A stretch of DNA of 64,000 bases. Source: Inhella crocodyli. GTDB taxonomy: Bacteria > Pseudomonadota > Gammaproteobacteria > Burkholderiales > Burkholderiaceae_C. Below are positions 55,878-61,200 of this stretch, one piece after another; the stretch's first letter is position 1; each line of letters begins with the position of its first letter. Location of the stretch: contig NZ_SACM01000005.1 of assembly GCF_004004565.1 (NCBI RefSeq), forward strand, positions 62,001-126,000, given 5' to 3'. The position numbers were made by a program, and so were the translations under genes. The notes under the pieces were generated by a model, which had not been told where the DNA came from, did not search any database, and saw only the letters and a program-made list of their open reading frames with translations.

Positions 55878-58315
55878 AGGCGCTGCTGCTGGACGCCTGG
55901 GCCGGCCTGCGCGCCCGCCGGGCCTCGCTCTTGGTGGCCCAGGCCGGCTTGGTGCTGGCGCTGACCGCCAGCCTGTTGGTCGGCCTGCTGGCCATCGCCC
56001 TGTCGGACATGGACCCCAGCCTGCCCGAGCCCGAGCGCATCGTCATGCTCGACTTCAAGGGCAACCCGCCGGGGCAACCCAGCGACTGGTTCGCCGCCTC
56101 CCCGGTCTTCTTCGGCCCAGCCTTGAAGGCCCGCCAAGCCCCGCTGGACCACCTGGCCCGCGTGCAAGAAACCGGCATGACCCTGCGCGCGGCGTCGGGC
56201 CCGCGCGTGTTCAGCCTGCTGCTCGCCGACCCCGAGCTCGTGCCGCTGATGCGCCTGCGCGCGCTGCACGGCGACCTGCCGACCGTGCTGCGCCGCCCCA
56301 ACGCCCTGGCCATCAGCACCGAGCTCGTGCGCGCGCTGTGGGGCGACCTGCCGCCGCAGCAGGCCATCGGCCGCACCCTCGTGGCGAACGACAAGACCTA
56401 CGAGGTGCTGGCGGTGATCACCCCCTTCGACACCCGCCACCCCCTGTCGGGACGCGACCTGATCGCCGCCATCGACGGGCAGGCCAGCCCCAACAGCGCC
56501 GAGGACCGGGACGCGATCTACATGGTCAACGGCCAGGTCTACGCCCGCCTTCGCCCCGGCGCGGACGTCTCGCAGGTCGGCGCTTGGATGCGCGAGGCCT
56601 TCCAGGCGCACCCCGGCTACGCCAAGCTCCCGGCCGACTGGCGCACCGGCCGCGAGGCCGCGTACTTCCGCGCGCTCACGCTGCCGCAAACCCGCTTCGA
56701 GGGCGGGCAGAACCAGCTCCGCTGGGGCATGCTGGGCGCCTTGGCGGCAGCGTGCGCCCTGCTGGTGCTGATGGCCGGCGTCAACGCCCTGAACCTGCAG
56801 GCGGCGCACCTGCTGCAGCGCCAGCGCGAAACCGCCCTGCGCCAAAGCCTGGGCGCCAGCCGCGGCCGCTTGCTTCAGCTCTGGGCCACCGAGCAAGGCC
56901 TCGCCCTGCTGGCCAGCGGGCTGGTGGCCTGGGGCCTGGCCTGGTGGCTGGGCCCGCTCTTGGTGGACGCCCTGGGCCTGCCGCCCCACACGCCGCTGTT
57001 CGACCCCCTGCCCGGCCGCCTGCTGGCCGGCTTGTCGGCGGTGCTGCTCACCCTGCTCGTGCTGACCGTGGCCACCCCGGCCGCCATGGCGCTGCGCCAA
57101 GCCCCAGCGCGCGCCCTGCAAGGCCGCACGGCGAGCGAGGGCCCGTGGGGGCGCCGCCTGCGCCAGGGTCTGTTGGCCCTCCAGCTGGGCGGCGCCGTGC
57201 TGCTGCTGGCCCTGACCGGCGTGCTGACCTTGCAGCACCAACACTTGCAAGGCTTGGAACACGGCTACCAGCTCGAGGGTCGCTTGCTGCTCGACGTCTG
57301 GGCCCGGCCCGAAGACGCGCCGCGTTTCAAGCCCTTGGTGGAGGCCTTGCAGCGCGAGCCCCTGGTGCGCAGCTGGAGCTTCAGCAACAGCGTGCCCGGG
57401 GGCGGCTGGAGTGGCAGCGTGGAACAGTTCCGCCGCAGTGGCGACCCTGCCGCAGGCAAGGTGCTGCGGGTGACGCAGGTGTCCAGCGGCTTCTTCCGCA
57501 CCTACGGCATGAAGGTGCTGGCCGGCGACCCGGGCGACCGGTCCGGCGACCCGCCCGGCGCAGCGCGCAGCGAGGCGCGGGTGGTGCTCGACGCCCACGC
57601 CGCCCGCTTGCTGGGCTTTGCCAGCCCCCAAGCGGCCGTGGGCAGCCTGCTGACGGCCGGTGGCGAGTTTCTGCAGGCCGGCCAACAGCCGCGGCGCGTG
57701 GTGGCCGTGGTGGGCGACGTGAAGCTCGAGTCGGCCCGCGACGTCGCGCAACCCCAGGCCTTCGTCCTCACGGACGACTACTTGCCCTTCCTGACCCTGT
57801 ACGGCGAGCAACCGGGTGCCCTGCATGCCGCGGTCGAACGCCTGTGGAAGCAGTTCGACCTGCCCTACTTCCACATCCTGGAGGAAGTGGCCGTGCAGCG
57901 CGCGCTGGCCTACCAGCAAGAGGCGCAAATCGCCGCGCTGCTGGGCGCCGTGGCGCTGCTGTCGGTGGCGGTGGCGGCGGTGGGCGCCTACGCCCTGGTG
58001 GCCGACACCCTGCGCCGGCGCCGCACCGAGCTGGTGCTGCGCCGCCTGCACGGCGCGCGGCACCGGCACATGGCCCGCGCGGTGCTCGGCGAGTTCGCCG
58101 CCCCCCTGGCGGTGGCCCTGGGCCTGGGCCTGCCGGCGGCGGCCTTGCTGGCCGAGCTCTACCTGGGCGGCTTCGTGGACCGGGTGCCGCTGCAGCAGGG
58201 CCTGCTCCCGGCGCTGCTGGTGGCCACGGTCACCACCGTGGTCGTGGTGCTATTCGCGGCCCTGCGCCACACCCGCCGCGCCCTGGCCTTGCGCCCCATC
58301 GAGGCGCTGGGCTGA
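55874..58315 (+). CDS. MacB-type ABC transporter permease with duplicated FtsX domains
   Basis: 813 aa with an N-terminal transmembrane segment (about 22-45), a periplasmic MacB-like domain (50-270), a cluster of four transmembrane segments (about 285-435, FtsX-like), a second periplasmic region and a further FtsX transmembrane set near the C-terminus (about 690-805). Two permease halves on one chain fit MacB-like proteins that work with a separate ATPase. Substrate not predictable; peptides, lipoproteins or a secondary metabolite are possible. Its 3' end overlaps the convergent GNAT gene by 66 bp. Confidence 0.88.
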   Translation: MKALLLDAWAGLRARRASLLVAQAGLVLALTASLLVGLLAIALSDMDPSLPEPERIVMLDFKGNPPGQPSDWFAASPVFFGPALKARQAPLDHLARVQETGMTLRAASGPRVFSLLLADPELVPLMRLRALHGDLPTVLRRPNALAISTELVRALWGDLPPQQAIGRTLVANDKTYEVLAVITPFDTRHPLSGRDLIAAIDGQASPNSAEDRDAIYMVNGQVYARLRPGADVSQVGAWMREAFQAHPGYAKLPADWRTGREAAYFRALTLPQTRFEGGQNQLRWGMLGALAAACALLVLMAGVNALNLQAAHLLQRQRETALRQSLGASRGRLLQLWATEQGLALLASGLVAWGLAWWLGPLLVDALGLPPHTPLFDPLPGRLLAGLSAVLLTLLVLTVATPAAMALRQAPARALQGRTASEGPWGRRLRQGLLALQLGGAVLLLALTGVLTLQHQHLQGLEHGYQLEGRLLLDVWARPEDAPRFKPLVEALQREPLVRSWSFSNSVPGGGWSGSVEQFRRSGDPAAGKVLRVTQVSSGFFRTYGMKVLAGDPGDRSGDPPGAARSEARVVLDAHAARLLGFASPQAAVGSLLTAGGEFLQAGQQPRRVVAVVGDVKLESARDVAQPQAFVLTDDYLPFLTLYGEQPGALHAAVERLWKQFDLPYFHILEEVAVQRALAYQQEAQIAALLGAVALLSVAVAAVGAYALVADTLRRRRTELVLRRLHGARHRHMARAVLGEFAAPLAVALGLGLPAAALLAELYLGGFVDRVPLQQGLLPALLVATVTTVVVVLFAALRHTRRALALRPIEALG

Positions 58316-58858
58316 CCACTCGCGCGCCAGCAGGCCGTACATCGCCGAGTCCGACACCACCCCGTCGACGATCCAGCGCTCGCGCAAGCGGCCTTCCAAC
58401 TGGAAGCCCAGGCGCGTGAGCACCGCCGCCGACGCGGCGTTGGCGGGGTCGATGTCGGCCTCCACCCGGTGCAAGCCCAGGGGACCAAAGCCCCAATCGA
58501 GGAGCGCCCCCACGGCCTCCCGCGCGTAGCCCTGGCCCCAGTGGGCCGGCCCCAAACCGTACCCGACTTCCGCGCGCCGGTTGCTGGCGTGAATCTTGTA
58601 GAGCGTGCAGGTGCCCAGCAAGGCGCCGTCGCGCGTTCGCTCGATGCCCAATCGCACATGCTCCCCACCCGCCAAATCGCGCTGGTCTTGCTCGATCAAG
58701 GCCAAGGCCTGCGCCGGGTCGGTCCAGGGGGGGCTGCTCCAGTAGCGGGCGAACAAGGGGTCCGAATGGATGCCGTACAGCGCCATCTGGTCGGCCAGCT
58801 GCAAAGGACGCAGCAACAAGCGCTGGGTGCGCAAGCGCAGGGTGCGGTGGTCGGGCAT
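58250..58858 (-). CDS. RimJ/RimL-like GNAT acetyltransferase
   Basis: 202 aa. RLLLRPLQLADQMALY opens a GNAT domain; the acetyl-CoA motif is GYGLGPAHWGQGYAREA (about 97-113), followed by HRVEADIDPANAASAAVLTRLGFQLEG. This form acetylates the N-terminal amine of proteins or small amines. Its 3' end overlaps the ABC permease gene by 66 bp on the other strand, and its ATG is 10 bp from the three-domain sulfur gene stop, implying an operon. Confidence 0.88.
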   Translation of the reverse strand: MPDHRTLRLRTQRLLLRPLQLADQMALYGIHSDPLFARYWSSPPWTDPAQALALIEQDQRDLAGGEHVRLGIERTRDGALLGTCTLYKIHASNRRAEVGYGLGPAHWGQGYAREAVGALLDWGFGPLGLHRVEADIDPANAASAAVLTRLGFQLEGRLRERWIVDGVVSDSAMYGLLAREWSAQRLDGAQGQGAAGVAQGRE

Positions 58859-58870
58859 GGGGCAGAGGGC

Positions 58871-61138
58871 TCAGATGCTGAGGGCGGCATCTTCGGCGAT
58901 CGGCCGCGCCAGCAGCGGGACCGCCAAGGCCATGCCACCGGCCAGGCTCCAGGCCTGTGCCCGCCCGAGCCGACGCAAAGCGCGCGCCACCTGGGTGCTG
59001 CGATTGCCGCTGCGGCAGATCAAGAGCAAGGGCTCCGCGCTCGCCAACCAGCGGGGCAGCGCATCCAGCAACGCCGACTGCGGCACGGTTTCAAGCACCC
59101 CGGTGCCCACCAGCTCGGGCATGGGGCCGACTTGCTGCTCGTAGGGCTCGCGAATGTCCAGCACGCGGGTGCCCGCCGAGCGCGTCAGCAGTGCCGCGGC
59201 CTGCTCGGCGTCCAAGGTGACGCAGGTGTCTTCGTCGGTGGCGGCGATCCGGGCGCCGCAGGCCACCGTCTGGTCCTCGGTCATGCCCAGACCCTGCTCC
59301 AGCGCGGCCTTGCGCGCGGCAAAGGCTTCCGCACTCAGTCCCTCGGACCACAGCGAGCCCAACAGGGGCTGGGCCTCCCGCTCGCACGCCAAGGTGGTGG
59401 CCAGCCGGGCGTCGTAGTCGTGGCCTGGCAACAGCAAGCCCCGAGGCCCCACGGCCTCGAGCAGGCGTTTCAGCGAGTCGGCGAACGCCTGTGGCGCGCT
59501 GACCGGGAAGTCGCTGCGGCCCAGGGCGCCGGGCATCACGGTGTCGCCCACGAACGCGGCCACCAGGTGGCCCTCCTCGTGCACCAAGTAGGCCGTGGCG
59601 TCGTCCGTGTGGCCCGGCACGGCCAAACGGCTCACGCGCAGCGGGCCCAGCAGGAGCGCGTCGACGTCCTGCGGCCAGCCCAGCTTGTCCACCGGCCGCT
59701 CGCGGTCGACCGGACGGCAAAGCGCCTGGCGCAAGGCCGTAGCGCTGGATTCGTGGTCGCCGTGGCTGTGGGTGTCCAGCACCGCCAGCACGCGATGCCC
59801 GTGGCAGCCCAACCAACGTTGCAGTTGGGTGCTGAGTTCGGGCAGGGGGTCGATCACCACGCTGCTGCGGGAGGCCGGGTCGCTGAGCACGTAGCAACAG
59901 GCGCCGGCGACGACGAAGCGGTTCAGTCGCGCCGGCGGCAAGGTGGCGTCGGCCGGATCGGGCGCTAGGCAGCTGGCCCGCAGCGCTTCCCCGCAACTGC
60001 GCAGCGCAGCGCAGGCCCGCTCGATGAACGCGGCGTCCGCCGCCGGCCCGAAAGACAGCCGCACGGCCGATTCGCATTGCCAATCGGGCAGGCCCATCGC
60101 CTGCAACACGAAGCTGGGCTTGGCCTTGGAGGCGCCGCAGGCCGACCCGGCGCTGACGCGCACACCAGCGGCATCGAACAGGTCCAGCAGCAGCTTGGCG
60201 CTCAGGCCCGGCACGGCGAAGTTCAAGGTCGTGGGCAGGCAGAGTGCCGCCGGCGCGTTGAAAACGAGCCCCGGAAAGGCCTGGGTCAATGCCGCGCTCA
60301 GGCGCTCGCGATGTCGCTGCAACTCGTCGGCGCTGGCCAGCACGTCGCCAGATTCCAGGGCCGCCAGCACCGCCCCCAGCGCGGCGATGCCGGCCATGTT
60401 CTCGGTGCCCGAACGCAGGGCGCCTTCCTGGCCCCCGCCCATCATCAGCGGCGTGAAGGGCGCTCCTTCGCGCACGTAGAGCAGGCCGATGCCCTTGGGC
60501 GCGTAGAGCTTGTGGCCCGAGAACGGGGCGTAATCGATGCGCCGCTCGGCCAAGCGCAGCGGCAACTTGCCCAGGGCCTGCACGCCGTCCACCAACCACA
60601 GGGCCGGGCTGCCGGCGAGCGCCTCGGCGATGCCGTCCAAATCGCTGACGACGCCGGTCTCGTTGTTCGCGGCCATGGTGCAGACCAACCCGGCACGCGC
60701 GGCGTGGGCGCGCAACCAGGCCAAGTCGTGGCGGCCATCGCGCCCGACCGGAATGGCGCGCAGCTCCAGGTTCAGGCCCAGCAGCGCGTTCCAATGCTGC
60801 AGGGCCTCGGGCACGGCCTTGTGCTCGGTGGCGCCGTACAGCAGCAGGTCCGGCGAGGCCCCCGGCGCATCGCGTCGCGCCCGCAGCGCGGCCAAGGCCG
60901 ACAGCACGGCGGTTTGGATGCCCTCGGTGGCGCCGCTGACAAAGATCAGGTCCCCCGTTGGGGCCCCCAGCACCCGGCGCGCCGAGGCCCGCACCCGGTC
61001 CATCATGGCCCGCGCTTTCAAGCCCGTGGTGTGCACGCTGCTCGGGTTGCCGAAGTCTTCGGCCATCGCCCGCAGCGCAGCGGCGCGTGCCTCGGGCAGG
61101 ACCGGGGTGGTGGCATTGGCGTCGAGGTACAGGTCCAT
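58871..61138 (-). CDS. Cysteine desulfurase - persulfide-dioxygenase-type MBL - rhodanese fusion
   Basis: 755 aa, three domains. Residues 1-385 are a class-V aminotransferase of the NifS/IscS type: PLP Lys210 (SGHKLYAPKG) and catalytic Cys334 in SAGSACGASKAKPS. Residues 400-620 are an MBL domain of the ETHE1/CstB type: THSHGDH (456-462), His510 (PGHT), Asp532 (VGDT), GRSDF (540-544) and His573 (PGHDY). Residues 640-750 are a rhodanese with Cys708 in CRSGNRS. CstB-like proteins join an MBL persulfide dioxygenase to rhodanese; the added desulfurase is unusual. Plausible chemistry: cysteine to enzyme persulfide to sulfite and thiosulfate. ATG 61138 follows AGGA; start upstream at 61288 would cross tRNA-Ser. 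Confidence 0.87.
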   Translation of the reverse strand: MDLYLDANATTPVLPEARAAALRAMAEDFGNPSSVHTTGLKARAMMDRVRASARRVLGAPTGDLIFVSGATEGIQTAVLSALAALRARRDAPGASPDLLLYGATEHKAVPEALQHWNALLGLNLELRAIPVGRDGRHDLAWLRAHAARAGLVCTMAANNETGVVSDLDGIAEALAGSPALWLVDGVQALGKLPLRLAERRIDYAPFSGHKLYAPKGIGLLYVREGAPFTPLMMGGGQEGALRSGTENMAGIAALGAVLAALESGDVLASADELQRHRERLSAALTQAFPGLVFNAPAALCLPTTLNFAVPGLSAKLLLDLFDAAGVRVSAGSACGASKAKPSFVLQAMGLPDWQCESAVRLSFGPAADAAFIERACAALRSCGEALRASCLAPDPADATLPPARLNRFVVAGACCYVLSDPASRSSVVIDPLPELSTQLQRWLGCHGHRVLAVLDTHSHGDHESSATALRQALCRPVDRERPVDKLGWPQDVDALLLGPLRVSRLAVPGHTDDATAYLVHEEGHLVAAFVGDTVMPGALGRSDFPVSAPQAFADSLKRLLEAVGPRGLLLPGHDYDARLATTLACEREAQPLLGSLWSEGLSAEAFAARKAALEQGLGMTEDQTVACGARIAATDEDTCVTLDAEQAAALLTRSAGTRVLDIREPYEQQVGPMPELVGTGVLETVPQSALLDALPRWLASAEPLLLICRSGNRSTQVARALRRLGRAQAWSLAGGMALAVPLLARPIAEDAALSI

Positions 61139-61165: not shown

Positions 61166-61200
61166 AAAAACGCCCCGGTGGCGAACCAACGGGGCGTTTT
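61166..61200 (-). terminator. Intrinsic terminator downstream of tRNA-Ser
   Basis: Stem arms AAAACGCCCCG (61167-61177) and CGGGGCGTTTT (61190-61200), 11 bp with a 12-nt loop, followed on the minus strand by a T-run (TTTTT at 61170-61166). It follows the tRNA by about 10 bp and precedes the fusion gene start by about 28 bp, so the fusion gene needs readthrough or its own promoter. Confidence 0.85.

Follow-up and report, generated by a model that had tools for sequence, protein, structure and literature searches.

Fusion of a cysteine desulfurase (CD) to a rhodanese (Rhd) domain is known from Pseudorhodoferax sp. Leaf274, whose CD-Rhd protein (WP_056898193.1) is a PLP homodimer. The available sections of PMC8931425 give an activity of 7600 nmol/min/mg with cysteine and DTT, and its authors rank the protein as the most efficient of the desulfurases characterised to date. 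According to the same sections, the rhodanese cysteine accepts sulfur, the rhodanese substitution C466S costs about a factor of 10 in activity when GSH or beta-ME is used, thiosulfate is also taken, about eightfold less efficiently (2.7e3 vs 2.2e4 per M per s), and roGFP2 is oxidised through transpersulfidation. The catalytic residues are Cys334 and Cys466, and the cysteine biosensor CyReB is based on this protein (PMC12319549, available sections). A second known fusion type, MBL-Rhd (PRF, CstB), joins an MBL domain to a rhodanese. The protein that we analyse here, CD-MBL-Rhd, combines these two types in a single chain. The preliminary description knew of no characterised enzyme with all three domains in this order, and we found no description of one in the titles and abstract openings of the open-licence papers that our searches listed; nor is it mentioned in the parts available to us of PMC8931425, PMC11763069, PMC12319549, PMC9774590, PMC10135228, PMC12856154, PMC6060420 and PMC7373191. 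The CD-Rhd form, however, has already been characterised (PMC8931425, PMC12319549).

The gene lies in the window, by which we mean the whole analysed stretch of 64,000 nucleotides of Inhella crocodyli DNA. The features on which the following argument draws are these.

58871..61138, minus strand: CD-MBL-Rhd fusion gene, 755 amino acids (single open frame, Pfam domains)
59963..61138, minus strand: cysteine desulfurase (CD) domain, IscS/NifS type, residues 1-392
60509-60511, minus strand: PLP lysine K210 of the CD domain
60137-60139, minus strand: catalytic C334 of the CD domain
59339..59926, minus strand: persulfide-dioxygenase-type MBL domain, about residues 405-600
58928..59206, minus strand: rhodanese (Rhd) domain, about residues 645-737, with the loop CRSGNRS
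59015-59017, minus strand: rhodanese catalytic C708
61210..61302, minus strand: tRNA-Ser (GCT), upstream neighbour of the fusion gene
61166..61198, minus strand: inverted repeat followed by T's, between the tRNA-Ser and the fusion gene, a possible terminator (by eye)
58250..58858, minus strand: GNAT acetyltransferase, directly downstream, with 12 bases between the genes (Pfam Acetyltransf_3)

Translation of 58871-61138 gives an ATG start, 755 residues and a stop in an uninterrupted frame. An alternative frame of 805 amino acids opens at GTG 61288; because it runs into the tRNA-Ser gene, this start is ruled out and ATG 61138 is the likely one. A scan ahead of the fusion gene gave no sigma-70-like promoter, and a terminator scan covering loops of 3-8 gave none there, including at the inverted repeat of 61166..61198. 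Beyond the tRNA-Ser lie a gene for an ACT-domain amino-acid kinase, which reads as an aspartokinase, and a PP-loop gene. In the family described below, one other member (L050) has a related GNAT gene beside it, on the opposite strand, and one further window neighbour gene recurs near two other members. Farther downstream, reading of the frames between 52080 and 58315 suggests a minus-strand sensor kinase and response regulator and plus-strand HlyD-like, ABC ATPase and permease genes.

Pfam bears out the domain order CD, MBL, Rhd that had been read from the sequence, with each domain above its gathering score: Aminotran_5 at residues 4-372 (6.5e-54), Lactamase_B as a partial match at 423-472 (8e-8) and Rhodanese at 645-736 (3.8e-5; 24.5 bits against a gathering score of 22.2). 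The coordinates, strand and residue numbers first given proved right, and K210, C334, C708, H457, H459, D461, H462, H510, D532 and H573 all lie where the motifs had been placed. The CD domain has the aminotransferase class V fold, PLP lysine and catalytic cysteine of a group I cysteine desulfurase; it falls below the NCBIfam equivalog cut-offs for NifS (263.9 bits against 530.75) and IscS (172.7 against 643.2), and the protein misses the threshold in each of the 19 listed NCBIfam models. The rhodanese is of the single-domain thiosulfate type, with CRSGNRS supplying the loop C-x-x-G-x-R and C708 the catalytic cysteine. In the MBL domain, positions were mapped from the available part of PMC6060420 together with profile alignments. 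The 2-His-1-Asp iron ligand positions are occupied by H457, H510 and D532, and the second-sphere and glutathione positions by T456, H459, R541, H573 and Y575; D461 and H462 complete the ten positions followed below. A full-length AlphaFold model (pLDDT 84.5, pTM 0.82) has cysteine desulfurases as its top matches in a fold search.

The search for relatives was seeded with six aligned proteins, that of the window and five related ones. Of at least 546 stretches confirmed when species genomes were scanned, the best 80 were kept, a sample that may miss other forms; these 80 come mostly from Burkholderiales, including Roseateles, Variovorax, Pelomonas and Comamonas, and also from Pseudoalteromonas and Parashewanella. 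Searching whole genomes at strict thresholds gave matches in 60/399 genomes of the window's family, 5/349 of its order, 2/369 of its class and 10/398 of its phylum, the window's own genome being included in each count. The second class-level match, a NifS-like protein adjoining an IscS-like gene, was rejected as a member. Merging at 95% identity reduced 123 rows to 108, and removal of the non-member L127 left 107 non-redundant members from Burkholderiales and gammaproteobacteria, the window protein counted among them. One Variovorax sp. E3 member (L071) has a reading frame broken near residue 135 and is excluded from the counts; the tree was built without it and without L073, which meets a contig end.

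The 107 members form one clade in the CD tree (SH-aLRT 100), and K210, C334 and C708 are kept in every one of them. The window protein, with its CD falling within this clade and followed in the chain by a rhodanese, belongs to this CD-Rhd fusion family. Median identity to the window protein (68 members) is 76% for the CD, 58% for the MBL and 51% for the Rhd domain. The same domain order with the three iron ligands recurs in 69 of the 107, which dismisses chance and a sequencing error, frameshift or assembly join of separate genes as its origin; equally, the concern that relatives might lack the architecture falls away with those found in the genome scans. CD-MBL-Rhd is thus a real, conserved three-domain enzyme family.

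A profile built from 33 MBL domains of the family was run against the PDB, where the top seven of 43 sequences reach 134-108 bits. Six of these (4ysb, 8zbd, BpPRF twice, human ETHE1 and 2gcu) are persulfide dioxygenases or ETHE1 relatives, in part by their entry titles, including 2gcu, which is listed as a putative hydroxyacylglutathione hydrolase; the remaining one, 9rhq, is named just as an MBL-family protein. With the same profile, type II dioxygenases score 77-73 bits, barely above the glyoxalase II-named entries 2xf4 (a hydroxyacylglutathione hydrolase entry, 71) and human glyoxalase II (68), and GloB scores 63. A fold search with an AlphaFold model of the MBL-Rhd part (mean pLDDT 89.3) puts BpPRF first. 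At the level of residues, the T456-H462 motif, R541, H573 and Y575 match the motif, R139, H171 and Y173 of the dioxygenase AcPDO (PMC6060420, available part). Sequence, profile and fold comparison together support the earlier assignment to a persulfide-dioxygenase type, and the domain is closest to the type I enzymes among these dioxygenases.

Members of the family can do without an MBL domain. When "full" is defined by the three iron ligands H457, H510 and D532, the 107 members divide into 69 full, 16 degenerate and 22 without the domain, so that it is degenerate or absent in 38. All ten mapped positions, three of which define the group, are kept in 62/69 full members. Decay can be seen in L007, where the ligand motifs have decayed and the CD and Rhd domains are intact. 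Within the window's genus, genomes G000, G002 and G003 carry a full member and G005 a CD-Rhd form only, and at the strict threshold no member was found in G001 or G004. The CD-based tree requires 11 changes of MBL state, with an unsure root. When it is rooted on distant desulfurases, some MBL-less members fall at the base, but a single clade of eight of the MBL-less members is not rejected (AU p 0.58; the constrained tree scores higher). Within the MBL-bearing part of the tree some absences have support, as for L008, which branches beside the window protein (support 96). Roseateles toxinivorans DSM 16998 (G082: L110, L201) has two copies, one full (L046) and one degenerate (L075). The degenerate L083, from a record titled Pantoea sp. 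18069, groups with an Acidovorax member, which reflects either transfer or a mislabelled contig. Two gammaproteobacterial sisters, L130 and L135, keep the three iron ligands and have D461/H462 replaced (H-Q and E-N), which may be early decay. We dropped them as proof of a mononuclear metal site because they are sisters and because the counterparts of the lost residues form an ionic pair in AcPDO (PMC6060420, available part).

The state of the MBL domain was compared with the presence of separate dioxygenases. The sample comprised 72 genomes with a member: 35 full (G082 counted here), 13 degenerate and 24 without the domain. A separate type I persulfide dioxygenase occurs in 5/35, 11/13 and 20/24 of these, respectively, or in 5/35 genomes with an intact MBL against 31/37 of the others (Fisher 3.5e-9, ignoring relatedness), and in 34/36 genomes with the type I enzyme the match spans the rhodanese part too. 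Type II dioxygenases show the opposite trend (25/35, 4/13 and 11/24; 15/37 for the last two combined), and a separate dioxygenase of any kind is found in 30/35, 12/13 and 24/24. The five full genomes with neither type are all gammaproteobacterial. Exceptions to the complementarity are five genomes that have both an intact MBL and a type I enzyme, and six of the 37 that have no type I enzyme; of these six, five have a type II enzyme and G453 has neither. After correction for relatedness, 2 pairs on well-supported branches, or 6 on all branches, are not significant because too few independent changes lie behind the pattern, and the complementarity is a lead, short of proof. The window genome itself has a separate type II (Blh-like) persulfide dioxygenase gene (L004:1111-1986), whose neighbour on the opposite strand is YeeE/YedE-type by reading only.

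The gene most often linked to the family is a regulator. A divergent Lrp/AsnC-type gene, a type assigned by Pfam on one representative, lies at most 400 bases upstream at 59 of the 106 loci with enough upstream DNA (36/68 full, 18/22 without MBL, 5/16 degenerate), and at seven more loci a gene of this type is present but differently arranged. The clustered set holds 42 regulators at 41 loci; all but one of them resemble E. coli DecR (44-55%) more than Lrp (32-39%) or AsnC, and the exception, nearer to Lrp, is a second Lrp-type gene, more distant from its locus. The E. coli regulator YbaO/CyuR/DecR responds to cysteine (PMC7373191, available part), and the linkage therefore suggests cysteine detoxification, with expression of the fusion perhaps induced by cysteine. 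The window locus is without a DecR-like neighbour, and the Lrp-type match that scores best in its genome shows 37% identity. A site resembling TTGGAAT-N3-ATTCCAA, scored at 10/14 or better, occurs in 15/36 intergenic regions vs 3.3% of shuffles; we do not claim it as the operator, because we derived the pattern from the very sequences that were scored, and some regions classed as unlinked turned out to be linked. A thioredoxin-reductase-type gene is directly downstream at 5/107 loci (L058, L054, L064, L077 and L159; one checked), and in the gammaproteobacterial neighbourhoods we saw no neighbour common across families.

Based on these data, and in line with the route from cysteine to sulfite or thiosulfate raised in the preliminary description, we propose that CD-MBL-Rhd is probably an aerobic, one-chain cysteine-catabolic enzyme that carries cysteine sulfur to sulfite without release of persulfide or H2S. 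The CD domain, with PLP on K210, would convert L-cysteine to alanine and leave a persulfide on C334; the sulfane sulfur would then pass from C334 to rhodanese C708 and on to glutathione, giving GSSH. We infer that the MBL domain would hold one iron, ligated by H457, H510 and D532, and would oxidise GSSH with O2 to sulfite and GSH, for a predicted net reaction of cysteine, O2 and H2O to alanine and sulfite. A fast desulfurase would thereby be kept from releasing H2S or persulfide, and thiosulfate may be a further product or substrate of the rhodanese. It is quite possible, if short of probable, that the protein is a single-chain cysteine-to-sulfite oxidase in the strict sense, in which the persulfide travels by way of the rhodanese to the dioxygenase and never leaves the protein. 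Bacteria would then have an O2-dependent means of cysteine detoxification distinct from both cysteine dioxygenase and the H2S-releasing desulfhydrases, its dioxygenase module being kept or dropped depending on whether the cell has a stand-alone one. Against the catabolic proposal stand the lack of a DecR-like neighbour at the window locus and the separate type II dioxygenase in the genome. The few independent changes behind the complementarity and its exceptions, the opposite trend of the type II enzymes, the narrow margin of type II dioxygenases over glyoxalase II-named entries with the MBL profile, the loss of D461 and H462 in L130 and L135, and TrhO downstream at 11/107 loci also count against it.

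Three other readings have to be weighed against cysteine catabolism. It is decidedly improbable that the central domain works as a zinc hydrolase of the glyoxalase II kind, with a glutathione thioester or something else as substrate, in a chain that oxidises no sulfur. GloB is the best NCBIfam model over the domain, but at 50.2 bits it is far under its cut-off of 200.8, itself a weak test when taken alone because L187, a dioxygenase-rhodanese fusion of known type, also misses it (99.5 bits). In glyoxalase II the equivalents of D461 and H462 are second-metal residues, and both are kept in 67/69 intact members. These residues do not discriminate, however, because type I and type II dioxygenases both keep the motif that contains them, and the counterparts of R541 and Y575 in dioxygenases bind glutathione (PMC6060420, available part). 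With the family profile, moreover, type I dioxygenases stand about 40-66 bits above human glyoxalase II, and they come first in the fold search.

A role in sulfur supply, in which the CD and Rhd domains feed persulfide to biosynthesis (tRNA modification, for example) and the MBL serves as a safety valve or regulator, we regard as unlikely. It would fit the absence or decay of the MBL in 38 members that all retain the CD and Rhd residues, and it draws on a TrhO-type tRNA uridine hydroxylase gene directly downstream at 11/107 loci (L076, L078, L080, L082, L086, L093, L121, L009, L144, L146 and L070; one representative checked), ten of which belong to members without an intact MBL; a purely catabolic role leaves these loci unexplained. 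Transpersulfidation of roGFP2 by the CD-Rhd relative (PMC8931425) points the same way. The commonest linked gene is nonetheless the DecR-like regulator, another gene of desulfurase type is present in the window genome (G000:C9, 31% identical over residues 2-384), and no known sulfur acceptor of Fe-S assembly appears among the annotated neighbour clusters, many neighbours being unannotated. A thiosulfate-directed, BpPRF-like enzyme, whose rhodanese would make GSSH from thiosulfate for oxidation by the MBL, with the CD as a second persulfide source, is very improbable. The MBL-Rhd part does match BpPRF over both domains and is collinear with stand-alone fusions (for example G1288, query 15-340 of 355), and the CD-Rhd relative uses thiosulfate, though with the eightfold penalty noted above (PMC8931425, available sections). 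Yet the CD is the best conserved part of the chain, and the relative placement of the MBL and Rhd domains in our model departs from that of BpPRF by an rmsd of about 16 A.

If cysteine catabolism is indeed the function, the source of persulfide and its oxidation would share one polypeptide. The enzyme would also open to experiment the question of how a very fast cysteine desulfurase can operate in a cell without poisoning it with sulfide. The family offers natural versions with an intact, decayed or missing dioxygenase.

Set beside the known systems, the window protein shares with the IscS/NifS desulfurases the fold, PLP lysine and loop cysteine; it differs from them in being fused, in scoring below the NCBIfam cut-offs and in having a DecR-like regulator linked to many of its relatives. 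With ETHE1 and other type I dioxygenases it shares the motifs T-H-x-H-x-D-H, PGHT, GD, GR-S/T-DF and HDY, but those enzymes have no flanking desulfurase, whereas the window MBL lies between two sulfur-transfer domains. BpPRF and CstB, the latter known here by mention only, have the same order of MBL then Rhd, the iron ligands and the fold of each domain; both are without a cysteine desulfurase, and BpPRF is 22-24% identical to the window protein in structural alignment, with a different domain placement in the model. The Pseudorhodoferax CD-Rhd protein has CD then Rhd, as here, but no MBL; in the window protein an intact dioxygenase-type domain separates the two. Because its Cys334/Cys466 positions coincide with those of the MBL-less members L138, L140 and L142, it probably belongs with them, a grouping drawn from residue numbering. 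The tree places these three among MBL-bearing members, and the Pseudorhodoferax enzyme may be a member of this family that lost its MBL domain.
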